Below, piece by piece: positions 29,824 through 55,608 of a stretch of 64,000 bases of DNA (its first letter is position 1; every line of letters starts with the position of its first letter). The stretch is from Cellulomonas sp. KRMCY2. Its GTDB lineage: Bacteria > Actinomycetota > Actinomycetes > Actinomycetales > Cellulomonadaceae. The notes under the pieces are model-generated. The model saw only the letters and a list, made by a program, of their open reading frames with translations. It was not told where the DNA came from and made no database searches. The stretch lies in the NCBI RefSeq assembly GCF_000526515.1, contig NZ_JAGF01000001.1, positions 2,356,001-2,420,000 on the forward strand, in the 5' to 3' direction. The position numbers and the translations under genes are program-made.

Positions 29824-29921
29824 GGCTCATAACCCAGAGGTCGCAGGTTCAAATCCTGCCCCCGCTACAAGTGAAGTCGCAGGTCAGAGGCTCTTTCGAT
29901 CTTCGGATCGAGGGGGCCTCT
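29824..29921 (+). other. att site: tRNA-Met 3' fragment plus terminator hairpin
   Basis: Bases 29824-29868 are the anticodon loop (CTCATAA, anticodon CAU), variable region, T-arm (ggttcaaatcc) and acceptor strand of a tRNA-Met. No matching 5' half is present upstream, so this is not a tRNA gene. A hairpin follows at 29886-29921 (agaggctc ... gggcctct, loop ttcg). The same unit recurs at 55503-55600 with one difference in the 45-base core. This is the expected product of integration into a tRNA 3' end. Confidence 0.85.
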
Positions 29922-29929
29922 TGCTTGCT

Positions 29930-29949
29930 CGTAAGCAGTTTGTAAGCAG
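29930..29949. repeat. GTAAGCAG arm-type repeats at left end of element 2
   Basis: gtaagcag occurs twice, at 29931 and 29942 (11-base spacing), just inside the left att. The same pair with the same spacing lies at 55366-55385 beside the integrase at the right end. Such matched arm sites at both ends are expected for one tyrosine-recombinase element. Confidence 0.6.
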
Positions 29950-30319
29950 GCGACGTCCACGGATCGACCTGGATGTCGGAGGACGCAGGTGGGCGCCATG
30001 AGCCGTGTCGTTCACCGTCCGGCTACCTGGGCAGCGAGATGCGGTCGCCGGACGGGCGGCGCGAACCAGGTCTACGTCCAGGCCGCCACCCTCACCGGAG
30101 ATCAGGTCTCCGACGACGCTGTCCTTATCAACGCCAAGCTGACCCGAGCGCATGTGCCGGTGCCCCATGAAGACCTAGTCGATGTCGGCAGCCACTACGC
30201 GAGGGTTCGACCAGAATCGCGCGCCGCCGCGCTCGGCGTTGAGGGTATGTTGCTGCGTTCGGCGCCCTTGGTGGGACTGCCGCGCGAGACCGGACATACA
30301 CCGATCCGGCGTGAGGTCG
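29950..30319. other. Left-end stretch without a supported gene
   Basis: A plus frame (ATG 29998 to 30333) is open, but its product has no recognisable fold or family and no clear ribosome site. I leave it unassigned. Confidence 0.3.
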
Positions 30320-30412
30320 TAGGTGGGCCATGACGGGGGCCAGACCCGCGCACGAAACTTGGGTTCGCCTCACCGAAGACGGAACGCTGTGAGAGGCTCG
30401 CACTTGCCAACC
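30320..30412 (-). pseudogene. Diverged IS1380-like transposase start relic
   Basis: The minus strand reads VRASHSVPSSVRRTQVSCAG, then LAPVMAH, recognisably parallel to RVCHNLSASFDDPNLVSCAG of the IS1380 copies, with the DNA segment gggccagacccgcgcacga nearly shared. Much older than the other relics. Confidence 0.45.
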
Positions 30413-30660
30413 CCACCGGCAGGTCCATGCCCAGGGCAACCTGCACCCGGGACTGCTCCCCGCGACGGGCCATCGCGATAGCGTCACTCCGGAACCGAAG
30501 CTGGGGCCGTCCCGGTCGTGCCCCTGGCCGCGCGGACTGCCGTGTGCCACCATCGTGTGTCGGAGACGTTCGCCCATGGCTGAGGAGCCGCGAAGCCGCC
30601 TAGGCCCGGACTTCAGGGAAGTCGGAGTAGGCTACTGGCTATAGAGGGAGGTGACAGGCC

Positions 30661-30702
30661 TTGATCGAAATCCGTTTTGAAGAAGAGGATGAGGACGTCT
30701 AG
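30661..30702 (+). CDS. 13-codon micro-ORF with strong ribosome site
   Basis: TTG at 30661 opens a 13-residue frame, MIEIRFEEEDEDV, preceded by gggaggtgacaggcc, a near-perfect Shine-Dalgarno at normal spacing, and followed 14 bases later by a textbook terminator. Upstream there is an AT-richer stretch suitable for a promoter. The product would be a very acidic peptide. It could be a short expressed peptide or the translated part of a small RNA. No homology known to me. Confidence 0.45.
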   Translation: MIEIRFEEEDEDV

Positions 30703-30716
30703 ATCTCGCTGTGTCC

Positions 30717-30746: not shown

Positions 30747-30753
30747 GCATTTC

Positions 30754-31470
30754 CTAGTGGCGTCGCAAGCGAGCTGTCACGTACGCCTGGTCGATGGCTC
30801 GCGCCCGCTTCAAGAGGCTCTGCGACTTGAGGCGTTGGACGAGTCCCTCAAGTTCGACAAAGGCAAACTCGAACGCGACTGCAGGGTTCTCCGCATTTCG
30901 CCTGTTTAGTACGTACTGTTCCCAGCGCTCAAAGCAGTACGTAATCGTGGTGCCGCCGAGCCTTCGCAGTGTCGTGAGGTCAAGGACCCCCATCTCGACA
31001 CCCACCGCGAGTCGCTCAAGGCCGTTGAGCGTGCTGCGAATTGCCTCGGCAAGAGAGCGTTGCTCCTCAGCTGAGACGGGCTCTTGGAGTGCAGGCAGCA
31101 CTGTCTCGTCGACTAGTGCTTTGCCTTGAGCGGCGGTCAAGCTACCAGTCCCAATCAGCCTCGTTACGGTCTTGCGGTGCGCGAGCGAGTCTGACGACCA
31201 CGTGTGCCAGGCGTCGATCGTCGCCGCGCGCTTCCCGCGCTGCCAGTTCGCCGTCGTGCTCGCCGCAGCCACCGCCAGGCTCAGGAGGGCGATGGTCGCA
31301 GCAACGACGGGAGCCGCCGTTACGAGGTTGGTCCCGACGGTTCGGGTCCGTAGTGCCACTGCCACTGCCCCCACCGCGATCGGAACGGTCAAGAAGAGAG
31401 CGATCACGCCGAGAACGCGGGCGGTCGGAGACCAGAAGCGCGGGCTGTTCATCTTCCGATTCAAGCGCAT
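30754..31470 (-). CDS. DUF4760-like membrane protein
   Basis: 238 residues. Two membrane helices at the N-terminus (LGVIALFLTVPIAVGAVAVA and VVAATIALLSLAVAAAST) are followed by a cytoplasmic domain. Its pattern (KRAATIDAWHTWSSDS, LNGLERLAVGVEMGVLDLTT, ITYCFERWEQYVLNRR) resembles DUF4760, a family of unknown function often found near mobile DNA. An ATG at 31470 or at 31452 may be used. It ends at the bidirectional terminator. It is the first recognisable cargo gene inside the left att, next to the IS21. Confidence 0.6.
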   Translation of the reverse strand: MRLNRKMNSPRFWSPTARVLGVIALFLTVPIAVGAVAVALRTRTVGTNLVTAAPVVAATIALLSLAVAAASTTANWQRGKRAATIDAWHTWSSDSLAHRKTVTRLIGTGSLTAAQGKALVDETVLPALQEPVSAEEQRSLAEAIRSTLNGLERLAVGVEMGVLDLTTLRRLGGTTITYCFERWEQYVLNRRNAENPAVAFEFAFVELEGLVQRLKSQSLLKRARAIDQAYVTARLRRH

Positions 31471-31609: not shown

Positions 31610-32410
31610 TCACCCCTGGCCCGCGAGGGCCTGGGCCTGGCGGACGCTTTCGCCGCTGGTTTGGCAGACGTGGGCGTGGTGCAGGAGCCGGTCGACGGTC
31701 GCGGTGGCGAGGGTCTTGGGCATGAGCTCGTCGAACGCGGCGGGGTGCAGGTTGGACGAGATCGCGACGGACCGTTTCTCGTAGGCGGCGTCGACGAGCC
31801 GGAAGGGGCCCTCGGCGGCGTCCTGAGAAACCGGCAACAGGCCGATGTCATCGCAGACGACGAGGTCGGCGCGCAGGACCCGGGCGATGGCTTTCGTGAC
31901 GGAGTCGTCGGCGCGGTGGCGGCGCAGCAGCGTGCCGAGGTCTTCCAGGGTGAACCAGGCCACCCGTAGTCCTTGCTCGACAGCGTGCTGGCCGAGGGCC
32001 TCGAGCAGGAACGTCTTGCCCGTGCCGGACGGCCCGCAGACCACGAGGTTCTCGCGGCGGTGGACCCATTCCACGGTGCGCAGCGCTTGCTGGGTCGGGG
32101 CCGGGATCGAGGACGCGCCCGGGTTCCAGGCGTCGAACGTCTTGCCGGTCGGGAACGCTGCGGCGGCCCGCCGGGTCGCCAGCGCGGAGCGTTCCCGGCC
32201 GGCGGCTTCCTCGGTGAGCAGGGCGCGGAGCACCTCGACCGGTTCCCACCGTTGGGCCTTCGCCGTGGCGATCACGTCCGGTGCGTGCCGGCGGATGTGG
32301 GGCAGCCGTAGCCGGTGCAGGAGCGCCTGGACGTCGGCGGGCATCGCTGGCGCGGCCGGGACCCCGGCGACCGGCACGGATGTGTCGCGCGTGCGGGTCG
32401 GGGTGCTCAT
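31610..32410 (-). CDS. istB: IS21 IstB ATPase
   Basis: 266 residues, the AAA+ helper of IS21 transposition. The N-terminal helical part (DVQALLHRLRLPHIRRHAPD) is followed by Walker A GPSGTGKTFLLEALG near residues 126-140, Walker B LVVCDDIGLLP, and the sensor/arginine region SVAISSNLHPAAFDELMP and ATATVDRLLHHAHV. It selects target DNA and activates IstA. The ATG overlaps the istA stop (ATGA). It appears intact, but its istA partner is frameshifted. Confidence 0.9.
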   Translation of the reverse strand: MSTPTRTRDTSVPVAGVPAAPAMPADVQALLHRLRLPHIRRHAPDVIATAKAQRWEPVEVLRALLTEEAAGRERSALATRRAAAAFPTGKTFDAWNPGASSIPAPTQQALRTVEWVHRRENLVVCGPSGTGKTFLLEALGQHAVEQGLRVAWFTLEDLGTLLRRHRADDSVTKAIARVLRADLVVCDDIGLLPVSQDAAEGPFRLVDAAYEKRSVAISSNLHPAAFDELMPKTLATATVDRLLHHAHVCQTSGESVRQAQALAGQG

Positions 32411-33937
32411 GCGGTCAGCTCCGCCGCGGCCGGCGCACCGAGGGTGGCCCAGCCTGCGGTGCCCTGGGTCAGGGACCGGTCCTCGCCTGCCTGGCTGACG
32501 GGCCCGGCCGCCGTGGTGGTCGCGTGGTGGTCCAGGATCGAGGCGAGGTCGGCCTCGGCGAACCGGGCATGGACCGCCGCGTGCCCCAGCGCCCAGTCGA
32601 CCTCCGCCCGGGAGAACAGCTTCGCGAGCTCGACGGCCTGGCCCATCTTCACGCGCATCTTCGTCGTGCCCGCCGCGGCGGCCTCAGCCAACCAGACCCT
32701 CGCGCCGTCACCGAGGGACAAGAACGCGGCCTCGGACACGGTCCGGGCCAACGGGACCCGGCCGAGTGCTCCCGCAGGTGAGGGCGGGAAATGGGCGTCG
32801 ATGATCCGTGGGCTGCCCGGCGTCGCGCGGGCGTGGCGGGCGACCTCGCGCGGGCCGGTGGGCCCGACGTGGACGATGACGACCTGCTCGTCGGAGCCGC
32901 GCCCGTGCACCCGCACCCTGACCGCCGCCCCGAGCAACACGTGCGGCACGGAGTACTGCCCCGAGTCGAACGTGACCATCGGCATCTTCGCCGGGACCAC
33001 ACGCGTGAGGCCGAACGCGAGCGTGTGCGGATCGGCCGGGACCGGGTGCAACCGGACGCGTTCCTCGGCGAGCATTACGTCCGGGGCCCGCCGGGTGACG
33101 CGGTGCTCACGGGCATTGACCTGCGCGCAGAACGCCTCGCACGCGTCCTCCAGGTCCGCGAACGATGCGTACTCCTCCAGCAGGTTCGTGTCCTTGGGGA
33201 CCAGGTCCGCCTTGGCGACCTTCACCGACGACTCGCTGCCGCCCTTGGACGCGGGGTCCACCGGCACGCACGTGTGTGTGCAACGTGACGCCGTAGTGGC
33301 GGGCGAACGCGACCATCGCCGGGTTGCGGACCGCCATGCCCGCGACGTGCTCGACCGTGACCGTCTTCTCGTTATCCGTCGGGACATACGTCGGTGCCCC
33401 GCCGATCCGGCGCATCGTCACGTCCAGGGCCGCCATCACCGACGGTGACGTCTTGTCCCTGATCGCCAGCACCACCCGGAACCTCGACCACGCCAACCAC
33501 GCGACGAACAACGTCGTCTTGGCCCCGTCGATCGTGGGCCCGTCGCCGAAGTCGTACTGGATCCACATCCCCGGCTCGGTGACCCACGGGCGGTGCACCC
33601 GGGTCCGCCCGACCCGGTAGTTCGCCTTCACGACCGCGACCGCCCGGCGCGTGGTGCGCTCCGAGCCGGTGAACCCCAACGCGACGAGCTTGTCGTGGGC
33701 CACGTCGGCGCGGACCTTGCCCTTCGACCTCTCGACCCACTCCTCGACCTTGGCCAAGTGAGCGTCGATCAGCTGCGGGCGCGGTGCGTAACGATCAGAC
33801 AATCCGCCCGCGTCGCGGGCCGCGACATACCGGGCCACGGTGTGGTGAGAGACCCCGGCCAGTTCCCCGGCATCACGCAACGACCCGGTCAAGTCGAATG
33901 CTTCCAACATGTTCATGATCTCCTCGGCAGACTTCAC
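32407..33937 (-). pseudogene. istA: IS21 IstA transposase with CA-run frameshift
   Basis: The N-terminal frame (from ATG 33937: MKSAEEIMNMLEAFDLTGSL) has the HTH, WVTEPGMWIQYDFGDGPTID (first Asp region) and YVPTDNEKTVT (second Asp). It then leaves frame at a cacacacac run near 33275. The C-terminal frame continues TCVPVDPASKGGSESSVKVA (catalytic Glu) to the stop at 32407. Restoring one CA unit would join the two frames. The element is thus inactive unless slippage rescues it. Confidence 0.8.
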
Positions 33938-34192: not shown

Positions 34193-35075
34193 TCACGGAA
34201 TGGATCTACTGCGCACCAACTGGAATGCGGCGAACGCCTTCTGGTCGGCGTCGGGCAGGGTGTGCAGGTACTTCTGGGTGGTCATGATCTGGGCGTGGCC
34301 CATGCGCTCCATCACGGACTTCAGGTCCGCGCCGCCGGCCAGGAGCCAGGAGGCGTGGGCGTGGCGCAGGTCGTGCATGCGGACGGGGAAGTCGATGCCG
34401 GCGCGTTCGACGGCCGGACGCCAGTAGCGGGCTCGGAAGGTGGATCGTGACAGGGGGCTGCCCTCGGCGATCTCTCGTGAGGGGAACAGCAGGTCGTCTC
34501 GGCTCAAGCCGAGGGTGGCGATCCGTGCGGCGATGGCCTCGACAAGTGCTGATGAGACGGCCAGGGTGCGGGGTTCGTCGTCCTTGGGGTAGGGCTTGAA
34601 GATCATTCGTTGGCCGGTGGGGGAGTCCTTGCTGGAGACCTCGACGATGGTCTCCTGGACGGTGATGGTGCGACGTAGGAAGTCGATGTGCAGGGGGCGC
34701 AGGGCTACGAGCTCGCCCCAGCGCAGCCCGGTCTCGATCCCGGTGAGCACCAGGACCTTGAACCGGTCGGGCACCGCGGCCAGGACCGCGTCGAACTCGT
34801 CGGGGGTCAGGATCCGCGACTTCGTGGTGATGACCTTGGGCAGCTCGGTGGCCTCGCAGGGGTTGTAGGCCAGGATCCTGTCGCGCACGGCCCGGGCGAA
34901 GACCGAGTGGAGCATGACGTGGTACTTGGTGATGGACCGGGGAGACAGGCCCTGCGCGGCGGCGAGGGTGACCCACTCCTGGACGGTCGACGGCATGATC
35001 CGAGCCAGGCGCATGGGCCCGAAGAAGGGCACGAAGTGGTTGCGCAGGTAGGACCGGTACCCGGCGCGAGTGCTC
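34193..35075 (-). pseudogene. Integrase 2 fragment (catalytic domain only)
   Basis: From the joint at about 35072 the reading STRAGYRSYLRNHFVPFFGP continues through TGLRWGELVALR, HDLRHAHASWLLAGG and the TTQKYLH Tyr region to a stop at 34193. Over this length the DNA is almost identical to the intact integrase at 54220-55095, but the first ~95 residues are missing. They are replaced by the end of the gene at 35074. The last residues also differ (FQLVRSRSIP). Confidence 0.85.
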
Positions 35076-35886: not shown

Positions 35887-38800
35887 ATGTCGATCCCACG
35901 TGCTCTCGTCCGCAGCCTCGTCTCGGTAGTCACCGTTGCGTTGCTGACCACGACCGCCATCCCACCGGCCGGGGCGGTCGACGATCTCGACGGCACGGGG
36001 TCGTCGGGATCGGACCTCACCGCAGCCGCGGCACCCTCGCCGGCGGAGTTGTCCGTGACCGAGTCGGGTCCCGTGATCTCCACACTTAGCCCGCCCGTGG
36101 CAGTGCCGGGTGCATCGGTGGTAGTCGACGGCGCTGGCTTCGCTGCGGAGCTCTCGGAGAACACCGTCACCGTCAACGGCCAGTCGGCCGTGGTCACGGC
36201 GGCGACCACGTCGCAGCTGGAGATCCTGGTCCCAGCCGCTGCCGGGTCCGGACCGGTCGCCGTGACCGCTGGCGGGACCACGGTCGTGTCGGAGTTGGAC
36301 CTCTATATCGTCCCGTCGGGGTTCACGCCCGATCTCGTCGCCGTCACGGGGCGCCTCGTGTCGGGCGAGCCAGTCACGGTTGCGTTGGGGGCGCCCAACC
36401 AGATCGCCCTGCTGACCGTCCCGCTCACGACCGACGATCGTCTGGCGGTCCAGATCAGCGGGAGCACCTTCGGGTCTTCCACGTCCAGCGCGCGGGTGAG
36501 CGTGCGGCGGCCCGACGGGTCGCTCCTCGTTGGTGCAACGGGCTTCGGCAGCTCGGGCCTGTGGATCGACTCGACAGCCGTGCCCGTCGACGGCACCTAC
36601 ACGATCCTCGTGGATCCGCAGGGAGTGGCCGTGGGTTCAGCCTCGGTGACGGCACACGGGGTGCCGGCGGATGTGGTTGTGGACGCGTCGCCCGGTGGTG
36701 CCCCGGTGGTGGTGGGCACGTCGGTTCCGGGTCAGAACGGTGCGGTGGTCTTCTCTGGTGTGGCGGGTCAGCGGGTGGCGTTGTCGCTGGTCGGGTCGAC
36801 CTTCGGGACGGCGTCGACGGCGTTGACGTTGGTTAAGCCTGATGGGTCGGTGTTGGTCTCGGCGTCCTTCGCGGCGGCCACGGCGTTCGTCGATGCGGTG
36901 ACGTTGCCGGTCAGTGGGGACTACAAGCTGGTGGTCAACCCGGCCAAGGCCGCGATCGGGCAGGTCGAGGTGTCGGTGTTGGATGCCTCTGAGGCGGTGG
37001 TGGCCGGTGCTGCCGATGGTGGGCTCCTGACGGTGGCGACGTCGGTGGCGGGTCAGAACGGTGCGGTGGTGTTCTCTGGTGTGGCGGGTCAGCGGGTTGC
37101 GATTGAGGTCGTGGACTCGACGTATGGGATCTCGACGTCGTCGCTGTATCTGTCGCTGGTCGGTCCGGGTGGGACCAGCGTGGTGGTCGCGACGAAGTCG
37201 GCGAAGGGCACGTTCATCGAGCCGGTGGTGCTGGCGGCCGGTGGTGAGTACCGGGTTGTGGTCGATCCGACCGGGGTGCTGACCGGGACCGTGGGGCTGC
37301 GGTTGCACGGGGTGCCGGCGGATGTGGTTGTGGACGCGTCGCCCGGTGGTGCCCCGGTGGTGGTGGGCACGTCGGTTCCGGGTCAGAACGGTGCGGTGGT
37401 CTTCTCTGGTGTGGCGGGTCAGCGGGTGGCGTTGTCGCTGGTCGGGTCGACCTTCGGGACGGCGTCGACGGCGTTGACGTTGGTTAAGCCTGATGGGTCG
37501 GTGTTGGTCTCGGCGTCCTTCGCGGCGGCCACGGCGTTCGTCGATGCGGTGACGTTGCCGGTCAGTGGGGACTACAAGCTGGTGGTCAACCCGGCCAAGG
37601 CCGCGATCGGGCAGGTCGAGGTGTCGGTGTTGGATGCCTCTGAGGCGGTGGTGGCCGGTGCTGCCGATGGTGGGCTCCTGACGGTGGCGACGTCGGTGGC
37701 GGGTCAGAACGGTGCGGTGGTGTTCTCTGGTGTGGCGGGTCAGCGGGTTGCGATTGAGGTCGTGGACTCGACGTATGGGATCTCGACGTCGTCGCTGTAT
37801 CTGTCGCTGGTCGGTCCGGGTGGGACCAGCGTGGTGGTCGCGACGAAGTCGGCGAAGGGCACGTTCATCGAGCCGGTGGTGCTGGCGGCCGGTGGTGAGT
37901 ACCGGGTTGTGGTCGATCCGACCGGGGTGCTGACCGGGACCGTGGGGCTGCGGTTGCACGGGGTGCCGGCGGATGTGGTTGTGGACGCGTCGCCCGGTGG
38001 TGCCCCGGTGGTGGTGGGCACGTCGGTTCCGGGTCAGAACGGTGCGGTGGTCTTCTCTGGTGTGGCGGGTCAGCGGGTGGCGTTGTCGCTGGTCGGGTCG
38101 ACCTTCGGGACGGCGTCGACGGCGTTGACGTTGGTTAAGCCTGATGGGTCGGTGTTGGTCTCGGCGTCCTTCGCGGCGGCCACGGCGTTCGTCGATGCGG
38201 TGACGTTGCCGGTCAGTGGGGACTACAAGCTGGTGGTCAACCCGGCCAAGGCCGCGATCGGGCAGGTCGAGGTGTCGGTGTTGGATGCCTCTGAGGCGGT
38301 GGTGGCCGGTGCTGCCGATGGTGGGCTCCTGACGGTGGCGACGTCGGTGGCGGGTCAGAACGGTGCGGTGGTGTTCTCTGGTGTGGCGGGTCAGCGGGTT
38401 GCGATTGAGGTCGTGGACTCGACGTATGGGATCTCGACGTCGTCGCTGTATCTGTCGCTGGTCGGTCCGGGTGGGACCAGCGTGGTGGTCGCGACGAAGT
38501 CGGCGAAGGGCACGTTCATCGAGCCGGTGGTGCTGGCGGCCGGTGGTGAGTACCGGGTTGTGGTCGATCCGACCGGGGTGCTGACCGGGACCGTGGGGCT
38601 GCGGTTGCACGGGGTGCCGGCGGATGTGGTTGTGGACGCGTCGCCCGGTGGTGCCCCGGTGGTGGTGGGCACGTCGGTTCCGGGTCAGAACGGTGCGGTG
38701 GTCTTCTCTGGTGTGGCGGGTCAGCGGGTGGCGTTGTCGCTGGTCGGGTCGACCTTCGGGACGGCGTCGACGGCGTTGACGTTGGTTAAGCCTGATGGGT

Positions 38801-44826: not shown

Positions 44827-46281
44827 AGGCGGATTCAATCGGTCGTCGCAACACCTCGAGGTCTCGGAGGTGTTCGATGGTTCGTCGGCAGCGGGCAGCG
44901 GATCGGGCGGTTCGGCCGAAGTTGAGGTCGCCCGGTCATCCGAAGTTCCAGCGCGAGGTCGAGACCGGGTTCTGGGTCGAGATCGTCAAGGGGCTGTTGC
45001 CCATCGAGGCGGCGGCCGCGGTCGGTGTGTCGCAGCCGGTCGGGCAGCGGTGGTTCCACGACGGTGGCGGCATGCCCCCGTTCGACCTCAAGGCGCAACC
45101 GTCGGGCCGCTACCTGTCCTTCGCTGAGCGCGAGGAGATCGCGCTGCTCAGGGCCCAGTGCCAGGGCGTGCGCGAGATCGCCCGGGCGGTCGGCCGTGAC
45201 CCGGGGACGATCTCTCGTGAGCTGCGCCGCAACGCGGCGACCCGTGGCGGGAAGGTCGAGTACCGGGCGTCGGTCGCGCAGTGGAAGGCCGATCTCGCCG
45301 CCCGTCGACCGAAGACCGCCAAGCTGGTCGCCGATCCGCGGCTGCACGCCTATGTCCAGGAGCGCCTGTCGGGGCAGGTCCGCCGGCCCGACGGGACCAC
45401 GGTCAGCGGGCCGGTGCCGCCGCGGTTCACCGGCAACCACAAGTCCCACCGCCGGGACCGGGTCTGGGTGCGGGCGTGGAGCCCGGAGCAGATCGCGAAC
45501 CGGATCAGGGTCGACTTCCCTGAGGATGAGTCCATGCGGATCAGCCATGAGGCGATCTACCAGGCGCTCTACATCCAGGGCCGTGGTGCTCTGCGGCGCG
45601 AGCTGGTGTGGTGTCTGCGCACCGGGCGCGCGCTGCGCGCGCCGCGGGAGCGGTCGCGGCGCAAGACCTGGGCGCACGTCACGCCCGAGACGCTGATCAG
45701 TGAACGCCCCGCCGAGGTCGAAGACCGCGCCGTCCCCGGGCACTGGGAAGGTGACCTCCTGATCGGGCTGGAGCGATCGGCGATCGGCACCGTCGTGGAG
45801 CGCACCACCCGGTTCACGATGCTGGTGCACCTTCCCCGCGAGGAGGGCTACCGCCACAAGGAGACGCCCAGGAACGGTCCCGCACTGGGCGGCTACGGGG
45901 CGATCACCATGAAGAACGCCCTCGCTACGACGATGTCCACGCTGCCGGCGCAACTGGCCCGTTCACTTACCTGGGACCGCGGCAAGGAGATGTCCGCCCA
46001 CGCCCAGTTCAAGGTCGCCACCGGCATCCCGGTGTTCTTCGCCGACCCGCAGTCCCCGTGGCAGCGGGGCACGAACGAGAACACGAACGGGCTGCTGCGC
46101 CAGTACTTCCCCAAGGGCACCGACCTGTCCCGCTGGAGCGCCGAAGACCTCGAAGCCGTCGCCCACGCGTTGAACACCAGGCCCCGCAAGACCCTCGGCT
46201 GGAAGACCCCCGCCGAAGCCTTCAACGAGCACCTACTCTTGCTCCAACAAGCCGGTGTTGCATCGACCGGTTGAATCCGGT
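44827..46281 (+). mobile_element. IS30-family element
   Basis: About 1455 bp. The ends aggcggattcaatcggtcg and (complement of right end) accggattcaaccggtcg form imperfect inverted repeats of about 26 bases. A 2-bp duplication (ca) flanks it. It carries one intact transposase. Confidence 0.8.
44877..46274 (+). CDS. IS30 transposase
   Basis: 465 residues, full length and open. The N-terminal part has two HTH-like regions (PIEAAAAVGVSQPVGQRWFH and LSFAEREEIALLRAQCQGVR, IARAVGRDPGTISRELRRNA). The DDE core follows: HWEGDLLIGLERSAIGTVVE (Asp), LARSLTWDRGKEM (Asp), and QRGTNENTNGLLRQYFPKGT (Glu). It recognises its own 26-base ends. It looks functional and its 3' half is nearly identical to the chimera at 12087-12788, so it has been active or recombining recently. 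Confidence 0.9.
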   Translation: MVRRQRAADRAVRPKLRSPGHPKFQREVETGFWVEIVKGLLPIEAAAAVGVSQPVGQRWFHDGGGMPPFDLKAQPSGRYLSFAEREEIALLRAQCQGVREIARAVGRDPGTISRELRRNAATRGGKVEYRASVAQWKADLAARRPKTAKLVADPRLHAYVQERLSGQVRRPDGTTVSGPVPPRFTGNHKSHRRDRVWVRAWSPEQIANRIRVDFPEDESMRISHEAIYQALYIQGRGALRRELVWCLRTGRALRAPRERSRRKTWAHVTPETLISERPAEVEDRAVPGHWEGDLLIGLERSAIGTVVERTTRFTMLVHLPREEGYRHKETPRNGPALGGYGAITMKNALATTMSTLPAQLARSLTWDRGKEMSAHAQFKVATGIPVFFADPQSPWQRGTNENTNGLLRQYFPKGTDLSRWSAEDLEAVAHALNTRPRKTLGWKTPAEAFNEHLLLLQQAGVASTG

Positions 46282-46771
46282 CAGTACCTCGCGGTTCGAT
46301 ACACCCAGCGGCTGGCCGAGGCCGGCGCCGTCGCCTCGGTCGGGTCCACCGGCGACTCCTACGACAACGCCCTGGCCGAGGCGTTCAACTCGTTGTTCAA
46401 GGCCGAGCTGGTTCGCAACAAGGGCCCCTGGAAGAACATCGACGACCTGGAGATCGCCGTCGCCGAATACATCGACTGGTTCAACCACCGGCGCCTGCAC
46501 GGGGAGATCGGACTGATCCCACCAGTCGAGCAGGAGGACACCTACTACCGTCAGAACAACGCCCCGGCGACCGCCGGAGCGTCAGTTGCGAGCCTCCACT
46601 GAAGTCGGCACGAGACACTTCCTCACGAGCGGTACCGGCCCGTGTCGGCCACGCCGGCCGGTCCTGAGGCATTCGGGTGATCTTCCGACGAAGTGCCGCG
46701 CGGCGGGGTAGGAGACCACTAGCCTCCAGGACGGGGAGTCACAAGCGGCGGCCCTGGACTTGACAGGGGGC

Positions 46772-49700
46772 ATGACCGTGCGCGGTTTGCTGGCGATTCG
46801 TCTTCGGGTTGTAGCTCGGGCTGTGGTGGTGACGCTTCTCCTCGGGATGCTGGTCGGCGTTGTGCCGGCGGCCCCGGCGGCCCTGGCTGTTGCGGATGAG
46901 GGGCCGTGGTCTGGGACGCTCGCATTGTCAGCGGCACGTTCTGAGGTCGATGCGAATGATGCGTCGACGACCTTCACGGTGGCGGTGAGCAAGGATGTGG
47001 TTTCGCCGTACTACTTGACGGTCTATGACGACACCGGGCGTCAGGTGTTCGACTGTGCTGGTTCCTCGACCTGCAAGGGTGGGGCGACGTTCACCGCCTG
47101 GACGCCGAACAACGCCACCCGGACCTACACCGCCTACGTGGCCCTGGACCGACCCATGACCGGGCCCCCCGTCAACGACGTGCGTGGGGCGTCGAGTGTG
47201 TCGGTGGCGAATCTGGGGTGGACCGGGACTCTTGAGCTGTCGGCGGACCGGACCGACGTCGATGCGAACAACGCGGCGACGGTCTTTACGGTCACGCCGA
47301 GCATGGATGTGGTTTCGCCGTACTACTTGACGGTCTATGACGACACCGGGCGTCAGGTGTTCGACTGTGCTGGTTCCTCGACCTGCAAGGGTGGGGCGAC
47401 GTTCACCGCCTGGACGCCGAACAACGCCACCCGGACCTACACCGCCTACGTGGCCCTGGACCGACCCATGACCGGGCCCCCGGTCAACGACGTCCGCTCA
47501 CCGGTGGCAGTCACGGTGGGGAATCTTGGGTGGACCGGGTCGACCACGCTGACCGCCGACTCGCCGTACGCCGATGCGAATGATGCGTCGACGACCTTCA
47601 CGGTGGCGGTGAGCAAGGATGTGGTTTCGCCGTACTACTTGACGGTCTATGACGACACCGGGCGTCAGGTGTTCGACTGTGCTGGTTCCTCGACCTGCAA
47701 GGGTGGGGCGACGTTCACCGCCTGGACGCCGAACAACGCCACCCGGACCTACACCGCCTACGTGGCCCTGGACCGACCCATGACCGGGCCCCCCGTCAAC
47801 GACGTGCGTGGGGCGTCGAGTGTGTCGGTGGCGAATCTGGGGTGGACCGGGACTCTTGAGCTGTCGGCGGACCGGACCGACGTCGATGCGAACAACGCGG
47901 CGACGGTCTTTACGGTCACGCCGAGCATGGATGTGGTTTCGCCGTACTACTTGACGGTCTATGACGACACCGGGCGTCAGGTGTTCGACTGTGCTGGTTC
48001 CTCGACCTGCAAGGGTGGGGCGACGTTCACCGCCTGGACGCCGAACAACGCCACCCGGACCTACACCGCCTACGTGGCCCTGGACCGACCCATGACCGGG
48101 CCCCCGGTCAACGACGTCCGCTCACCGGTGGCAGTCACGGTGGGGAATCTTGGGTGGACCGGGTCGACCACGCTGACCGCCGACTCGCCGTACGCCGATG
48201 CGAATGATGCGTCGACGACCTTCACGGTGGCGGTGAGCAAGGATGTGGTTTCGCCGTACTACTTGACGGTCTATGACGACACCGGGCGTCAGGTGTTCGA
48301 CTGTGCTGGTTCCTCGACCTGCAAGGGTGGGGCGACGTTCACCGCCTGGACGCCGAACAACGCCACCCGGACCTACACCGCCTACGTGGCCCTGGACCGA
48401 CCCATGACCGGGCCCCCCGTCAACGACGTGCGTGGGGCGTCGAGTGTGTCGGTGGCGAATCTGGGGTGGACCGGGACTCTTGAGCTGTCGGCGGACCGGA
48501 CCGACGTCGATGCGAACAACGCGGCGACGGTCTTTACGGTCACGCCGAGCATGGATGTGGTTTCGCCGTACTACTTGACGGTCTATGACGACACCGGGCG
48601 TCAGGTGTTCGACTGTGCTGGTTCCTCGACCTGCAAGGGTGGGGCGACGTTCACCGCCTGGACGCCGAACAACGCCACCCGGACCTACACCGCCTACGTG
48701 GCCCTGGACCGACCCATGACCGGGCCCCCGGTCAACGACGTCCGCTCACCGGTGGCAGTCACGGTCCGAAACCACGGCTGGACAGGCTCAGTCGCGCTCC
48801 TGCAACGGCAGTCGAGCCCGACGAGCCGCACCATGACCGTGACGCCGAGCAAGGATGTGGTTTCGCCGTACTACTTGACGGTCTATGACGACACCGGGCG
48901 TCAGGTGTTCGACTGTGCTGGTTCCTCGACCTGCAAGGGTGGGGCGACGTTCACCGCCTGGACGCCCAGCAACGCCACCCGGACCTACACCGCCTACGTG
49001 GCCCAAGACCGACCCATGACCGGGCCCCCCATCAACGACGTGCGGGCGATCAGTGGGGTCTACAGCACGGCGGGTCGTGGGCCGACGGAGTCCGGCGAGA
49101 CCGCTGCGGGGTACAACTTGTCCCAGGCATGTAACGACCGGTGCGCCGGCGACCCCGTCAACACCACGACCGGTGAGTTCTTCGAGACGACCACTGACCT
49201 GGCGGTTCCTGGGTCCGGTCCGGGGTTGGCGTTCACCCGTTCCTACGGTGTGAGTCGCACCGACGTGGCCGGGACGCTGGGCCGCGGTTGGACGGACAGC
49301 TTCGCGATGCGCTTGTCGATCCGAGTCGGTGCGGTTGGCAACTCGTTGGAGACGGCGTCTCAGGTCCAGGTCACACAGGAGAACGGCAGCGTGATCACGT
49401 TCTCGCGGCTGTGGAACGGCACCTATGTCGGCCCTGACCGTACGTTCGCCTCCCTGGTTCGGGACACGGACGGGACCTACGTGTTGACCCGGAACGGTCA
49501 GCAACGGTTCACCTTCGACGCCCAGGGTCGCCTTGCCACGCTGGCCGACGCCAACAACAACACGGTGACCCTGTCCTACGACGGTGATCAGCTTGCCGCG
49601 GCCGCCGACGACAAGGGTCGCTCCCTGCAGCTGACATGGTCCGAAGATCGGATCGCGTCGGTCACCGATCAGACCGGTCGGAGTGTCACCTACACCTACT

Positions 49701-52700
49701 CCGCGGCCGGTGACCTGACCCGTGTGGTTGGTCCCGATGGTTCGGTCAAGGTCTACTCCTATGACACCGCCCACCGGGTCGTTTCGATGATCCACCCAGA
49801 TGGTGGGATCACGCGCAACGACTACGACGTGGCGTCGCGGGTGATCAAGCAGACCGACCCGCTTGGGCGCGTCCTGACGTTCGCCTATGGCGACGGCCAG
49901 ACCACGATCACCGAACCGACCGGTTCGGTGGGGATCGAACGCTACGTCGATGGCCAGGTGCTCTCTAGAACGACGGCGGCCGGGACCGACCTGGAGGCCA
50001 CAACCTTCTTCACCTACGGGGCCACCAACCAGGTCGAGTCCACCACCGACCCGCTGGGCCGGGTGGTCCGGTTCACCCATGACGCTCGGGGCAATCGCAC
50101 GTCGGTGACCGACCCGCTGGGACGGATCTCGACCACGACCTTTGACCAGTGGAACAACCCGCTGACGGTGACCAACGCTGCAGGGGAGACCACGTCGTTC
50201 GCGTATGACGAGCACGGAAACCTGACCGGCAGCACCGGCCCGGATGGTGCGGTCTCGACGATGACGGTCAACCCGGACGGGACGATCGCAACTGCGACCG
50301 ACCCGTTGGGTCGCGTGACAAGCTTCGCTTATGACACCAACGGCTACCTGGCGACGGTCACCGGTCCGGATGGGGCCGCGTTGGTGACCCAGTTCGACGA
50401 GCTCGGGCGGGTGGTGGCGACGACCGATCCGCGCGGCACCGCACCTGGCGCCTCGCCCGCGGAGTACACCACGACGTTCAGCTACGACGCGGCCGGCCGC
50501 CGCACCTCGGGCACCGACCCGTTGGGTGCCGTCGTTGCCACGGCCTATGACGCCGCCGGGCGACCGACCACTGTCACTGACGCGCTGGGGGCCCAAAGCC
50601 TGCGCGAGTACGACGCCGCCGGTCAGCTGGTCGCGGTGGTTGATGCCGCGGGTGGCCGCACGACCATGACCTATGACGGTGCCGGGCGCATGCTGACCGT
50701 CACCGACGCCCTCGGGGCCACGACCAGCACGGAGTACGACGCCCTGGGGCGGGCGGTTGGGCTGACCGACGCCCTGGGCCGGATCAGTCGGACCGAGTAC
50801 GACGCCGGGGACCGGGTCGTGGCCACGGTAGCGCCCTCCGGTGCGCGGACCACCTACACCTACGACGTCGCCGACCAGCTCCTGACCGTCGCCGACCCCC
50901 TGGGCGGTCAGACGGTCACGACCTACGACCCGGCAGGCCGCCCTGTGACGGTCACCGATGCCGACGGGCGTGCCGTCACCGGCACCTATGACGACGCCGG
51001 CAGGCCGGTCGCCTTGGAGCGGGCCGACGGCAGCACCGTGGCGTGGGCCTATGACGCTTCCGGGCAGATCACCGCCTACACCGACGCCGCCGGGACCCCC
51101 ACGACCTACACCTACGACACCGCCGGCAGACGGGCCACATCGACCGATGCCGCCGGACGCACCACCGCCTATGCCTATGACCGGGCGGGCCTGCTGGCCA
51201 CCGTCACCTACCCCGACGCCCAGCACGCCTCGTACTCCTATGACGCAGCGGGTCAGGTAGTGGGCATCGACTACTCCGACACCACACCGGACGTGACCTA
51301 CACCTACGACGCCGCTGGGCGGGCCACGGCCGTGACCGACGGGACCGGGCAGACCGACTACTCCTACGACGTGCTCGGCCAGGTCCTGGACGTCACTCGC
51401 GGCGCGACCACCGTCGGGTATGGGTGGGACAACGTCGGGCAGCTGACGGACCTGACCTACCCCAGCGGCCAGAGCGTTCAGCGCACCTACGACGCGGCCG
51501 GGCAGCTGACCACGCTCACCGACTGGGCCGACCGGGTGTTCACCTACACCTGGACCGACGACGGGCAGGTCGACCAGCTCACCTACCCCAACGGGGTCAC
51601 CACCGACTACGAGCAGGACGCGACCGGGCAGGTTCTGGGCATCACCACTTCCAATGACACCGGGATCGACCTGCTCGAGCTCGCCTACTCCTACACCGAC
51701 GCCGGGCTGATGGCCGACCAGACCACCACCCGCTCCACCGAAGCCCGCGCCCCACCGACCGCCACGACCAGCACCTCGACCTTCACCTGGGACCCGCTGG
51801 CCCGGATCGCCCAGATCAGCGGAGACCAGGCCGGGACATTCACCTTCGACACCACAGGGTCGCTGACGGCCCTGGCCGACGGGCGCACCCTGACCTACGA
51901 CCCCGCCGGTCAGGTCACCGGCCTGACCAACCCCACCGCAATCACCGTCACGGCGTTCGGGTACGACGGACGGGGCAACCGGACCACAACCGCAACCACT
52001 GGGGTGGCCGGCACCGCAACGACCACCGCGGCCTACGACCTGGCCAACCGGCTCACGTCACTGACCAGCCCCGACGGCGTGACGACCAGCTACACCTACA
52101 ACGCAGCAGGGCTCCGCGCCTCGGCGACCACCGGCACCGGGCCTGACGCCGTCGAGGACTTCACCTGGGACTCTGCCGCGCCCATCCCGCTGCTACTGGC
52201 CGACGCCAGGTTCACCTACCTCTACGGAGCCGGAACGGCGCCCCTGGCTCAGGTCGCCCTGGACGACGGGCACGTCGAGTACCTGCACACCGACCTGATC
52301 GGCTCGATCCGCACCACCACCGACACCAACGGCCAGGTCACCGCCGACGCCAACTACGACACCTACGGCCAACCACTGACCATCACCAACAGCCCGGTCA
52401 GCGACGTCACACGCTTCGGATACGCCGGGGAGTACACCGACCCCACCGGCTACATCTACCTCCGCAACCGCTACTACGACCCAACCACCGCACAGTTCCT
52501 AACTCGAGACCCACTGGAAGACCGGACCCTCGACCCCTACGGCTACACCAGCGGCAACCCTCTCCAGTTCATCGACCCGTTGGGGCTGTTTTCTTGGAAT
52601 CCGCTGGACTGGGACCCCGATGTGCTCGACACGGTCTCAGCAATCGCAGGCGGTGCGGCGGCAATCCTGGTGGTGACAGGAGTAGGGGCACCGGTCGCGG

Positions 52701-53008
52701 CCGTCCTCGGCGGAGTGGCCATGGCCACCTCAGCTGTCGCAACGGTCAACCGAGTCCGACAAGGGGACGATTTCATTGACATCGCGCTGTCTGGCGTGGG
52801 CGCTGTCACTGGTGCCGGCGGACTGGCTGCAAGGGCCGTCGCCAAGGGTTCCGTCGCCGCCGCGCGGGCGGCATCCGCCTACACTCGCGGAGCCGGGTCC
52901 GCGGGACGTGCAGTCGACGATGTGCTGGAGACCTTCGACGTGCTGGGCTACACACCTCTGACGTTCCTGGATGGAGCTCGCGCCCTCTGGTGTGAAGGAG
53001 TGATCTAG
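46772..53008 (+). CDS. RHS/YD-repeat secreted polymorphic-toxin-like protein
   Basis: 2078 residues. The signal peptide (VVARAVVVTLLLGMLVGVVP, cleavage near AALA) is followed by seven ~100-residue domains sharing DVVSPYYLTVYDDTGRQVFD and CKGGATFTAW, arranged as a 208-residue pair repeated three times plus one. Next come a DUF6531-type start (DPVNTTTGEFFETTTDLAVP, about 790), some 40 YD repeats (about 930-1860), and the RHS core signature (YDPTTAQFLTRDPLEDRTLD, about 1900) ending in DPLGL. The last ~140 residues form the variable tip. It has two hydrophobic stretches (AIAGGAAAILVVTGVGAPVA, IALSGVGAVTGAGGLAARAV) and no nuclease motif that I recognise. Start: ATG 46772, or GTG 46778, which is better spaced from the AGGGGG site. 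Confidence 0.85.
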   Translation: MTVRGLLAIRLRVVARAVVVTLLLGMLVGVVPAAPAALAVADEGPWSGTLALSAARSEVDANDASTTFTVAVSKDVVSPYYLTVYDDTGRQVFDCAGSSTCKGGATFTAWTPNNATRTYTAYVALDRPMTGPPVNDVRGASSVSVANLGWTGTLELSADRTDVDANNAATVFTVTPSMDVVSPYYLTVYDDTGRQVFDCAGSSTCKGGATFTAWTPNNATRTYTAYVALDRPMTGPPVNDVRSPVAVTVGNLGWTGSTTLTADSPYADANDASTTFTVAVSKDVVSPYYLTVYDDTGRQVFDCAGSSTCKGGATFTAWTPNNATRTYTAYVALDRPMTGPPVNDVRGASSVSVANLGWTGTLELSADRTDVDANNAATVFTVTPSMDVVSPYYLTVYDDTGRQVFDCAGSSTCKGGATFTAWTPNNATRTYTAYVALDRPMTGPPVNDVRSPVAVTVGNLGWTGSTTLTADSPYADANDASTTFTVAVSKDVVSPYYLTVYDDTGRQVFDCAGSSTCKGGATFTAWTPNNATRTYTAYVALDRPMTGPPVNDVRGASSVSVANLGWTGTLELSADRTDVDANNAATVFTVTPSMDVVSPYYLTVYDDTGRQVFDCAGSSTCKGGATFTAWTPNNATRTYTAYVALDRPMTGPPVNDVRSPVAVTVRNHGWTGSVALLQRQSSPTSRTMTVTPSKDVVSPYYLTVYDDTGRQVFDCAGSSTCKGGATFTAWTPSNATRTYTAYVAQDRPMTGPPINDVRAISGVYSTAGRGPTESGETAAGYNLSQACNDRCAGDPVNTTTGEFFETTTDLAVPGSGPGLAFTRSYGVSRTDVAGTLGRGWTDSFAMRLSIRVGAVGNSLETASQVQVTQENGSVITFSRLWNGTYVGPDRTFASLVRDTDGTYVLTRNGQQRFTFDAQGRLATLADANNNTVTLSYDGDQLAAAADDKGRSLQLTWSEDRIASVTDQTGRSVTYTYSAAGDLTRVVGPDGSVKVYSYDTAHRVVSMIHPDGGITRNDYDVASRVIKQTDPLGRVLTFAYGDGQTTITEPTGSVGIERYVDGQVLSRTTAAGTDLEATTFFTYGATNQVESTTDPLGRVVRFTHDARGNRTSVTDPLGRISTTTFDQWNNPLTVTNAAGETTSFAYDEHGNLTGSTGPDGAVSTMTVNPDGTIATATDPLGRVTSFAYDTNGYLATVTGPDGAALVTQFDELGRVVATTDPRGTAPGASPAEYTTTFSYDAAGRRTSGTDPLGAVVATAYDAAGRPTTVTDALGAQSLREYDAAGQLVAVVDAAGGRTTMTYDGAGRMLTVTDALGATTSTEYDALGRAVGLTDALGRISRTEYDAGDRVVATVAPSGARTTYTYDVADQLLTVADPLGGQTVTTYDPAGRPVTVTDADGRAVTGTYDDAGRPVALERADGSTVAWAYDASGQITAYTDAAGTPTTYTYDTAGRRATSTDAAGRTTAYAYDRAGLLATVTYPDAQHASYSYDAAGQVVGIDYSDTTPDVTYTYDAAGRATAVTDGTGQTDYSYDVLGQVLDVTRGATTVGYGWDNVGQLTDLTYPSGQSVQRTYDAAGQLTTLTDWADRVFTYTWTDDGQVDQLTYPNGVTTDYEQDATGQVLGITTSNDTGIDLLELAYSYTDAGLMADQTTTRSTEARAPPTATTSTSTFTWDPLARIAQISGDQAGTFTFDTTGSLTALADGRTLTYDPAGQVTGLTNPTAITVTAFGYDGRGNRTTTATTGVAGTATTTAAYDLANRLTSLTSPDGVTTSYTYNAAGLRASATTGTGPDAVEDFTWDSAAPIPLLLADARFTYLYGAGTAPLAQVALDDGHVEYLHTDLIGSIRTTTDTNGQVTADANYDTYGQPLTITNSPVSDVTRFGYAGEYTDPTGYIYLRNRYYDPTTAQFLTRDPLEDRTLDPYGYTSGNPLQFIDPLGLFSWNPLDWDPDVLDTVSAIAGGAAAILVVTGVGAPVAAVLGGVAMATSAVATVNRVRQGDDFIDIALSGVGAVTGAGGLAARAVAKGSVAAARAASAYTRGAGSAGRAVDDVLETFDVLGYTPLTFLDGARALWCEGVI
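46949..48765 (+). repeat. 624-bp tandem repeats in the RHS gene
   Basis: Units begin at 46949, 47573 and 48197 and each encodes 208 residues. The core block recurs within each unit and once more at about 48850. The copies look identical at the DNA level until they diverge after 48765. Confidence 0.9.
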
Positions 53009-53554
53009 ATGCCGACGTCGGACGTCCGGTTCATCAGGGAGAGCGCCCTCGCCTGGCGAGCGCTGCACCGCATTTCAAGGGTGTTCGTGACCAAAGCGAT
53101 CGTGGCGCGTGACGTCCGCGGCCGGTCACGCGAGCAGCTCGCCGCGGACATCGTCAACGACGGTCTCGGGCCGCGCGCATCGGTATGGGGTCGTGACCAC
53201 GCGGTCGAAATGCTCACGTACGCGGTTCCCATCGTTGCGACCGCGGCATACGTCCCGCTGCTGGTAGGCGCCCTACTCGTGCGGCCGATCTTCGGTGGCC
53301 CTGCAACGGGGAACGTTCTCGCCCTAGCGGCAGCTGTCCTCTTTCCGGTGCTCGGGCTCGTGGTTCCGTTGTCGGTACGGTTTGCTCGGGCACGCCATCA
53401 ACTACGCGCATGGGAAGCTAGGGGCGAGCCTGAGGACGAGCAGCCCGTCGACGGCTCGCTCCCGCGCGGGGTCGATGCCGTCATTGGCATGTCAATAGGC
53501 GGGGTGCTCAGCATCATGATGATCGCCGGAGTGATCCTTGGACCGTCCCGCTAG
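53009..53554 (+). CDS. Three-helix membrane protein, candidate immunity protein for the RHS tip
   Basis: 181 residues. It begins at the base after the RHS stop, so it is translationally linked. After a charged N-terminal region (residues 1-60) there are three membrane helices: LTYAVPIVATAAYVPLLVGA, VLALAAAVLFPVLGLVVPLS and VIGMSIGGVLSIMMIAGVIL. No family recognised. Genes placed directly after an RHS toxin tip usually encode its immunity protein. A membrane immunity protein would fit a membrane-acting tip, which the two hydrophobic stretches of the RHS C-terminus suggest. This is inference from position. Confidence 0.6.
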   Translation: MPTSDVRFIRESALAWRALHRISRVFVTKAIVARDVRGRSREQLAADIVNDGLGPRASVWGRDHAVEMLTYAVPIVATAAYVPLLVGALLVRPIFGGPATGNVLALAAAVLFPVLGLVVPLSVRFARARHQLRAWEARGEPEDEQPVDGSLPRGVDAVIGMSIGGVLSIMMIAGVILGPSR

Positions 53555-54219
53555 TGACTTCAGGACGACTGTCGCCGTGACCACCGACAACACCCGTCCG
53601 AGGGCAACCCGCGCCGTCGGGACCATCCGCCGCAGCGAAGGCTCAAGCGCGTGAGCTCCGGAGACGACCAGGCGGCGAACTCAGAACGCAGCGATTCGGC
53701 GAATCACGCCGTGGCTGACGCTCTCACCGGTCCACGGCAGTTGCCCATTACCCAGGCAGGCGCGTCTTCGATCTGAGCCCCTGACCGCCGAGGACCTGGA
53801 GTCTCTCGCCCCATCACTACGGCCCCAAGTGGGGCCACATCAGGCTGTCACTCTCAGCGGGCCTCGGGTGTCGATGAGCGAGCCGTCTCGTTCGGCCAGC
53901 ACATCGGTGATCGAGCCGCGCCCGAGCGCCCGGGGCCGGGCAAGCGACCGTGCCCTCTGACACGGGCCTGGACCGGACGGCCCGTCAGTTGGGCCGCGTC
54001 CCTCGGTGAGGCGCCCTTCGTGAGGCCCTTGACCTCAACGAGCCCGACCGACCCCGCAGCCATGGGGGCGCTGCAGTTCTGGGCCCGATGAAGCAGGATC
54101 GAGACCTCGGACACGCCGGGTGTTCTCGGTGCACAGTGTGGCGACAAGATCACTTCAGGGAGTCCCGGGAGTTCGCTCTCCGGGATGCCGACGACTGTGA
54201 CCTCACGGCGGACGTGTTC
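53555..54219. other. Non-coding stretch left of integrase 3
   Basis: About 660 bases without a convincing gene. From 54087 it is homologous to 43372-43503. Frames present are short and rich in arginine and proline and look like chance. Confidence 0.5.
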
Positions 54220-55344
54220 TTACGGGGTGGATCGACCGCGTATTGACTCGAATGCGGCGAGGGCCTTCTGGTCGGCGTCGGGCAGGGTGTGCAGGTACTT
54301 CTGGGTGGTCATGATCTGGGCGTGGCCCATGCGCTCCATCACGGACTTCAGGTCCGCGCCGCCGGCCAGGAGCCAGGAGGCGTGGGCGTGGCGCAGGTCG
54401 TGCATGCGGACGGGGAAGTCGATGCCGGCGCGTTCGACGGCCGGACGCCAGTAGCGGGCTCGGAAGGTGGATCGTGACAGGGGGCTGCCCTCGGCGATCT
54501 CTCGTGAGGGGAACAGCAGGTCGTCTCGGCTCAAGCCGAGGGTGGCGATCCGTGCGGCGATGGCCTCGACAAGTGCTGATGAGACGGCCAGGGTGCGGGG
54601 TTCGTCGTCCTTGGGGTAGGGCTTGAAGATCATTCGTTGGCCGGTGGGGGAGTCCTTGCTGGAGACCTCGACGATGGTCTCCTGGACGGTGATGGTGCGA
54701 CGTAGGAAGTCGATGTGCAGGGGGCGCAGGGCTACGAGCTCGCCCCAGCGCAGCCCGGTCTCGATCCCGGTGAGCACCAGGACCTTGAACCGGTCGGGCA
54801 CCGCGGCCAGGACCGCGTCGAACTCGTCGGGGGTCAGGATCCGCGACTTCGTGGTGATGACCTTGGGCAGCTCGGTGGCCTCGCAGGGGTTGTAGGCCAG
54901 GATCCTGTCGCGCACGGCCCGGGCGAAGACCGAGTGGAGCATGACGTGGTACTTGGTGATGGACCGGGGAGACAGGCCCTGCGCGGCGGCGAGGGTGACC
55001 CACTCCTGGACGGTCGACGGCATGATCCGAGCCAGGCGCATGGGCCCGAAGAAGGGCACGAAGTGGTTGCGCAGGTAGGACCGGTACCCGGCCCTGGTGC
55101 TGACCTCGAGGTGCCGCGACGGCAGCCAGACCTCCTGGGCGTACTGCTGGAACGTGATCTGGCCGGCCGCCCGATCGACCCACGTGCCGTCGGTGACCTT
55201 GTCGTCTTGCCGGCCGGCAGCGCGCTCGGCCTCGCGCTTGGTGTTGAAGGTGCCCGCGGAGCGGATCTTGCCGTGGCGGTCCCGGTAGACGGCGGTGAAC
55301 CGCGACTTGTCGCCTCGGACGGGTCGCTCGACCACCCAGCCCAT
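54220..55344 (-). CDS. int: Tyrosine recombinase (integrase 3, element 2)
   Basis: 374 residues, complete. The N-terminal arm-binding-like part (RFTAVYRDRHGKIRSAGTFN) is followed by a SAM-like core-binding domain (FQQYAQEVWLPSRHLEVSTR). The catalytic domain has TGLRWGELVALR, HDLRHAHASWLLAGG and MERMGHAQIMTTQKYLHTLP (Tyr). The ATG at 55344 is chosen because GGAGGTGG precedes it; the longer open frame upstream covers the arm repeats. It lies 160 bases left of the second tRNA-derived att and is about two thirds identical to integrase 1 by eye. It should catalyse integration and excision of the 29.8-55.5 kb interval. Confidence 0.92.
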   Translation of the reverse strand: MGWVVERPVRGDKSRFTAVYRDRHGKIRSAGTFNTKREAERAAGRQDDKVTDGTWVDRAAGQITFQQYAQEVWLPSRHLEVSTRAGYRSYLRNHFVPFFGPMRLARIMPSTVQEWVTLAAAQGLSPRSITKYHVMLHSVFARAVRDRILAYNPCEATELPKVITTKSRILTPDEFDAVLAAVPDRFKVLVLTGIETGLRWGELVALRPLHIDFLRRTITVQETIVEVSSKDSPTGQRMIFKPYPKDDEPRTLAVSSALVEAIAARIATLGLSRDDLLFPSREIAEGSPLSRSTFRARYWRPAVERAGIDFPVRMHDLRHAHASWLLAGGADLKSVMERMGHAQIMTTQKYLHTLPDADQKALAAFESIRGRSTP

Positions 55345-55365
55345 CGCCGCCACCTCCAGCGTCCT

Positions 55366-55385
55366 CGTAAGCAGTTCGTAAGCAG
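55366..55385. repeat. GTAAGCAG arm-type repeats beside integrase 3
   Basis: cgtaagcag occurs at 55366 and 55377, 11 bases apart, just upstream of integrase 3. The same pair lies at 29930-29949 near the left att, as expected for the two arms of one attP. Confidence 0.6.
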
Positions 55386-55502
55386 ACATGCCTGGATCCG
55401 GGTGGATCGTGGCGTATCTCAGTGGACCCCGATACCGCCTCTGACCTGGGCAAACGCTCAGATCGATGCTAGTCGGAACCTCGCGAATGGCAAGGTGCTC
55501 CC

Positions 55503-55600
55503 GGCTCATAACCCAGAGGTCGCAGGTTCAAATCCTACCCCCGCTACCAATGTAAGTGCAGGTCAGAGGCCCTTTCGATCTTCGGATCGAGAGGGCCTCT
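55503..55600 (+). other. att site: second tRNA-Met 3' fragment plus hairpin
   Basis: Bases 55503-55547 repeat the 29824-29868 tRNA segment with one substitution, and the hairpin 55565-55600 (agaggccctttcgatc, loop ttcg) repeats 29886-29921. Again no tRNA 5' half is present. In direct orientation with the first copy, it bounds a 25.7-kb element. Confidence 0.85.
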
Positions 55601-55608
55601 GGCGTTCG

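Follow-up and report, generated by a model that had tools for sequence, protein, structure and literature searches.

Tandem islands at RNA genes

Rows of islands that share one RNA gene are described from several bacterial systems. These include: (i) the ssrA islands of Dehalococcoides, many of which lie in tandem behind one RNA gene, with a serine recombinase at the tmRNA (PMC3146451), (ii) the tRNA islands of Islander, among which rows of at least three are rare (4 listed vs 125 of at least two) (PMC4383910), and (iii) the actinomycete integrative and conjugative elements (AICEs), with a tandem pair in tRNA-Lys (Fean5518/Fean5534) and a separate element in tRNA-Met (Faln5456), where same-site tandem rows are described as inherently unstable (PMC3218068). 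The locus considered here is a 64,000-nucleotide stretch of Cellulomonas sp. KRMCY2 (the window), bases 2356001-2420000 of the complete 4.495-Mb genome (G000). Its central feature, E2 (window 29824-55547), is very probably a single member of a row of integrative elements that lie in tandem at the 3' half of an initiator tRNA gene, between the neighbouring units E1 and E3. The array is best read as an accretion of integrative mobilizable elements (IMEs) and decayed passengers. This is a known kind of row, but its unit ends and its travel between species are unusually readable: islands are stacked at an apparently single-copy initiator tRNA gene, their ends can be paired from sequence, and a sister unit moves between species, which makes the locus a clean natural case. 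No paper on these arrays was found in the open PMC text searched.

The row shares with the Dehalococcoides ssrA islands half-sites in a single orientation, an integration module in some units and, among its scanned genes, the lack of own transfer genes; it differs from them in its tyrosine integrases at a tRNA, element-borne hairpin, unit-specific repeats and the relaxase of E1 (PMC3146451). Site-specific stacking beside a decayed element resembles the accretion of IMEs and cis-mobilizable elements (CIMEs) (PMC5704250). By that account, E1 would fit an IME, with a relaxase and an integrase and no mating apparatus seen in its scanned open reading frames (ORFs). A strict CIME keeps its attachment (att) sites and has lost its integration and transfer genes; E2, by contrast, retains an open integrase (int2). 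E3, with a frameshifted integrase, is nearer to a CIME than E2. Similarly to Islander islands, whose tandem members each have a tRNA fragment and an integrase (PMC4383910), E1 and E2 carry both of their own, and the displaced tRNA fragment is oriented as the intact tRNA gene; E2 contributes int2 (PF00589) as its own integrase gene. The E3 integrase, unlike those of Islander tandem members, is broken, with pieces in several frames. AICEs also place tyrosine integrases at tRNA 3' ends, but their FtsK/TraB-type transfer and replication genes (PMC3218068) have no counterpart among the 69 ORFs of the array row that were scanned with Pfam, a subset of its ORFs.

Array at the initiator tRNA gene

A complete tRNA-Met gene lies at genome 2318349-2318423, on the same strand as the half-sites and 37.6 kb left of the window. 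Its anticodon stem contains three GC pairs and its first acceptor pair is mismatched, hallmarks by which we take it to be the initiator tRNA-fMet. Among the G000 matches listed (seven of eight, the remaining one weaker), it is the sole full-length match, and it looks like the only full initiator tRNA gene of the genome. Behind it, half-sites in a single orientation follow at genome 2385824, 2411503 and 2447381, and after them, oriented likewise, comes a decayed end (2504499), in which an integrase fragment is fused to a hairpin. The units thus delimited are E1 (67.4 kb), E2 (25.7 kb) and E3 (35.9 kb), followed by a 57.1-kb stretch to the decayed end.

The original prediction, drawn from the window alone, had placed a 25.7-kb element between two repeats of a tRNA-Met 3' half with its hairpin. 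The two half-sites (29824-29868 and 55503-55547) lie 25,679 bp apart and show 92% identity over 103 bp when the hairpin is included. As had been proposed, both lack a tRNA 5' half: no tRNA is detected in the window by ARAGORN, and the similarity shared with the intact gene begins in the anticodon stem. The complete tyrosine recombinases expected beside the repeats correspond to int1 of E1 and int2 of E2, which are open ORFs on the minus strand with a Phage_integrase domain and the catalytic residues R, HxxR, H and Y of tyrosine integrases. The giant proteins and insertion sequences (IS) reported between the repeats are likewise present, as two giant ORFs and IS-type genes. The prediction of an accretion site with at least two tandem elements can now be refined to three delimited units plus the decayed stretch, and its advice to look left of the window led to the intact tRNA-Met gene, with the half-site at 2447381 as a further copy.

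Pairing of unit ends by direct repeats

The interval between integrase and half-site usually contains two direct repeats of the arm type, spaced about 11 bp from each other. In E1 (TGGTCAAC) and E2 (GTAAGCAG), the integrase-side repeats recur just 3' of the hairpin at the opposite end of the unit. Over 17 non-redundant units of the family, the end-to-end match sum is 250, compared to a permutation mean of 171.3 (sd 13.7), and none of 100,000 permutations is as high. The set derives from 20 assembled units minus three repeat copies of a 13.8-kb lineage (G013, G017 and G122); G144, G210 and G096 stand outside it, as their right half-site was not detected. The pairing scores are 27 for E1 and 23 for E2, and no other right end scores higher for either. 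The true partner is without a higher rival in four of the 17 units (E1, E2, the G008 unit and one of G016), and most of the remaining units share their repeat class with others. As the ends of E2 match, the boundaries originally assigned to it are those of a real unit.

Empty and filled sites in relatives

Empty and filled sites, for which a comparison of related genomes had been suggested, are both found. In G012 and G002, the intact tRNA is followed by hairpins unlike that of the elements; G012 has no int2 relative at E 1e-90, and G002 has a partial relative on another contig. The last half-site of G013 has to its right a slightly changed G012-type native hairpin, and the G002 type stands to the right of the last half-site in G015, G011, G017, G008 and G122. 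With native hairpins at the far ends of filled rows, each unit therefore supplies a tRNA 3' half and a terminator of its own and displaces the native terminator outward. An 826-aa gene at genome 2457530 was considered as an empty-site marker and dropped: in G007 and G018 it does occur behind the tRNA, but its strand there is the opposite one.

A mechanism of stacking can be proposed from this anatomy. The left end of each unit holds its own copy of the tRNA 3' half, followed by a terminator hairpin and by direct repeats; the right end holds an integrase, usually accompanied by repeats that match those on the left. Insertion would proceed by strand exchange in the anticodon stem-loop, probably with the crossover in the anticodon loop, such that a whole tRNA gene is restored with the 3' half and terminator of the incoming unit. 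The old tRNA half, displaced outward, would become the next half-site and could again be used as a target.

Relatives and movement between species

Relatives of int2 in named genomes are noted in several Actinotalea and Cellulomonas and in other actinobacteria. A tRNA-Met 3' half lies at most 250 bp upstream of the integrase in 18 of the 26 named-genome loci found by int2. The other eight comprise L107 (18-base core only), L109 and L113 (half-site 1.4-1.7 kb away), and L112 and L114-L117 (none); of the last group, L112 and L114-L116 are at a contig end and L117 is an integrase fragment. In a family sample of 221 genomes, int2 relatives (E up to 1e-90) occupy 29 places in 19 genomes, and a tRNA 3' half followed by an element-like hairpin (long match, E up to 4.6e-21) is present in 51 by hand count. 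Units at the same tRNA number three in G013, two each in G011, G017 and G122, one each in G008 and G015, and one plus the start of the next in G023.

A sister unit of 13.8 kb, with a match that starts at the half-site, occurs in three species. Its identity is 99.95% between G011 and G013 (12.9 kb compared, to the end of the fetched piece), 99.76% between G011 and G017 (13.9 kb) and 99.78% between G013 and G017 (13.0 kb), whereas identity among the three is 80.4-86.4% in the DNA to the left of the tRNA. Because the units are near-identical beside core DNA that diverged this far, the sister unit has, on sequence grounds, plainly moved between species, and recently. In G122, of another genus, the unit ends are the same, and 92-96% of the backbone is present in pieces that extra DNA separates. 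Among ten ORFs scanned in the 13.8-kb unit, no relaxase was detected; the hits are efflux transporters, dehydrogenases, a thioesterase and a glutathione peroxidase.

The recent spread of the sister unit bears on whether the units of the array may be active at present. A possible reading, though one held with less than even confidence, is that the insertions are old and the row is fixed, with half-sites that are mere scars and with int1 and int2 out of use. The frameshift in the E3 integrase, the decay of the end at 2504499, and the truncated integrases and IS-type genes within E2 are all consistent with such a fossil. By contrast, int1 and int2 keep open reading frames and their catalytic residues, each of E1 and E2 still has matching ends, and the sister unit has travelled recently.

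Composite structure of E2

Two truncated int2-like copies that the original prediction had missed lie inside E2 (34195-35074 and 43367-43872). Both are without the att-proximal part, and the second terminates at IS3-type DNA. As two such copies are present, E2 is a composite, probably of at least three ancestral units fused through loss of their inner ends; earlier units, minus their att-proximal ends, now ride as cargo between the outer ends of E2. The single 25.7-kb element first proposed is thus retained in its paired outer ends and refined to a composite with two earlier integrase ends. An alternative, which seems unlikely, is that E2 grew by internal duplication, with homologous recombination generating copies of the integrase end in place of separate insertions. 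The inner copy at 34195-35074, at 98.4% identity to int2, is as close as a recent duplicate would be; however, the second copy is just 90.7% identical, and rows of several units with divergent integrases are found in G011, G013, G017 and G122. The cargo of this composite unit includes a TIG/PPC giant protein, an RHS giant protein with a small ORF, a DUF4760 gene and IS21-type genes. For giant protein 1, relatives of the C-terminal part (32-52% identity) occur in five other genomes of the 221.

Transfer genes and element class

A TrwC relaxase is encoded in E1, 11 kb behind the tRNA, and relatives of it lie 4-6 kb behind the tRNA in G011, G017, G013, G009 and G023. E1 thus combines a TrwC relaxase with int1, and no family of a type IV secretion system (T4SS) is noted among its scanned ORFs; across the 69 ORFs of the row, no T4SS, FtsK, VirB4, coupling-protein or capsid family was found. 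E2 has no relaxase among its scanned ORFs. Besides integrases, the sole phage-named match is Terminase_5 (22 bits), inside an IS-type transposase. E1 may accordingly be an IME that relies on a helper system, and E2 could ride along with E1; transfer would occur by conjugation, with the relaxase of the tRNA-proximal E1 probably acting in cis. A prophage or a self-transmissible integrative and conjugative element (ICE or AICE) was dropped as highly improbable: AICEs typically have their tyrosine integrases at the 3' ends of tRNA genes (PMC3218068), but no transfer or capsid family was detected in the scanned ORFs and int2 has no relatives in viral contigs, plasmids (E 1e-60) or phages (E 1e-40).

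The reading of the row as stacked IMEs and decayed passengers must also accommodate observations that count against it. The units of G008 and G015 have no relaxase relative on the contig of the tRNA, and the whole of E2 was not found elsewhere. Three of the 17 units are unpaired (E3, score 8; the 13.8-kb unit, 7; one G016 unit, 9), and in these the best end match is not the repeat at all; because its ends fail to pair, E3 looks like a hybrid. G007, G018 and G003 carry an element-type hairpin behind the tRNA without repeats, which may be a scar. The row of G000 has no clean right end, as the native hairpin searched for (one exact pattern) is absent from this genome, and nucleotide synteny right of the array reveals no collinear right flank in G007, G018 or G012.

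Elsewhere in E1 (genome 2337584-2339034; L014:17584-19034), a tyrosine recombinase of another type is followed by a small helix-turn-helix gene.

Covariation of integrase and repeats

In a set of 22 integrases, conservation is lowest in the N-terminal domain (mean identity 54%, vs 77% in the catalytic part). N-terminal similarity correlates with repeat similarity (r 0.58), and the correlation is 0.49 once the catalytic part is controlled for (0 of 10,000 permutations). The catalytic part, by contrast, reaches 0.13 with the N-terminus held fixed (2175 of 10,000). The set derives from 27 non-redundant integrases, minus two with no start codon in the length range and minus L107, L170 and L183, whose repeats were unread; near-identical integrases are kept, the sequences are related, phylogeny is partly controlled, and the repeats are read by eye. 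Since N-terminal similarity tracks the repeats and the catalytic part does not, the N-terminal domain may read the repeats of its unit, with the tRNA core common to all; this is a lead, not proof. The apparent arm-site code, in which the N-terminal domain covaries with the repeats around a shared tRNA core, appears to be new here.

It is tentatively proposed that the row forms an addressable array, a possibility that stands somewhat short of probable. On a common tRNA core, each integrase would read the repeats of its own unit through a fast-evolving N-terminal domain, and units could be excised singly or in blocks without cross-talk. If so, several same-site islands could coexist where rows are thought unstable, and the non-matching units (E3 and the 13.8-kb unit) would be hybrids of within-row recombination that need two integrases or a neighbour to move. 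Should the repeat code hold, it would offer a direct test of how islands with the same target keep apart.

Other features of the window and genome

Features of the window are collected in Table 1; the IS21, IS3 and IS30 names of its IS-type genes are the families to which we presume these belong. The RHS giant protein and adjoining small ORF (46823-53554) have a toxin-immunity-like layout, which we liken to a polymorphic toxin with its immunity gene. PADLOC, run on ten proteins, returns a weak ApeA-like match alone. Just behind the left end of E3, a 10-base unit forms a tandem run (55675-55752).

Table 1. Features at the E1/E2/E3 boundaries and within E2 (window positions).
Feature	Position	Strand	Evidence
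Right-hand part of unit E1 (67.4 kb, starts at intact tRNA, genome 2318379)	1..29823	.	half-site positions
int1, E1 tyrosine integrase, 383 aa as longest ORF	28502..29653	-	PF00589, catalytic residues
E1 integrase-side direct repeats, TGGTCAAC type, match E1 left end at intact tRNA	29662..29691	+	
Half-site E1/E2, tRNA 3' half	29824..29868	+	
Element-type terminator hairpin after E1/E2 half-site	29869..29924	+	
E2 left-end direct repeats, GTAAGCAG type	29929..29949	+	
DUF4760 gene	30754..31470	-	PF15956
IS21-type istB, and istA in two overlapping pieces	31610..33937	-	IstB PF01695, Mu-transposase C domain
Truncated int2-like copy, 98.4% to int2, att-proximal part gone	34195..35074	-	
Giant protein 1, TIG and PPC domains, internal repeats	35887..42843	+	
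Further truncated int2-like copy, 90.7% identity to int2 plus its downstream flank	43367..43872	-	
IS3-type DNA interrupted by IS30-type transposase gene (44922-46274)	43873..46602	+	domains, sequence
Giant protein 2, RHS-repeat protein	46823..53008	+	PF05593 with 19 stretches, PF20148
Small ORF immediately 3' of giant protein 2	53009..53554	+	Pfam, PADLOC: no match
int2, E2 tyrosine integrase, 429-aa ORF; start probably near 55344, judging from relatives	54220..55509	-	PF00589, catalytic residues
E2 integrase-side direct repeats, GTAAGCAG type	55366..55385	+	
Half-site E2/E3, tRNA 3' half	55503..55547	+	
Element-type terminator hairpin after E2/E3 half-site	55548..55603	+	
E3 left-end direct repeats, TGTCAACGA type, no match to E3 right end	55609..55629	+	
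ApeA-like HEPN gene at E3 left end, immediately after the half-site, candidate anti-phage	55771..57198	+	PF18862, PF18739; weak PDC-S58

Useful cargo rides such rows, as E1 holds the one thiC match of G000 (genome 2351465-2353087; L015:11462-13090), left of the window. The gene adjoins thiamine-pathway genes (kinase and synthase) and a metE-like gene, and a thiC match is present in just three of 19 genomes of the genus.

Other tRNA genes of G000 have 3'-half copies nearby. At 3804119-3840652 (L021-L023), an intact tRNA-Pro(GGG) has two 3'-half copies about 17 kb away; a scan of this region for integrase motifs found none, and position 3804119 carries what is left of a decayed tRNA 3' half, together with an element-type hairpin. 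A second island, at 1851622-1866759 (L130, L131), consists of an intact tRNA-Pro(CGG), an adjoining integrase-like ORF and a 3'-half copy about 15 kb away.

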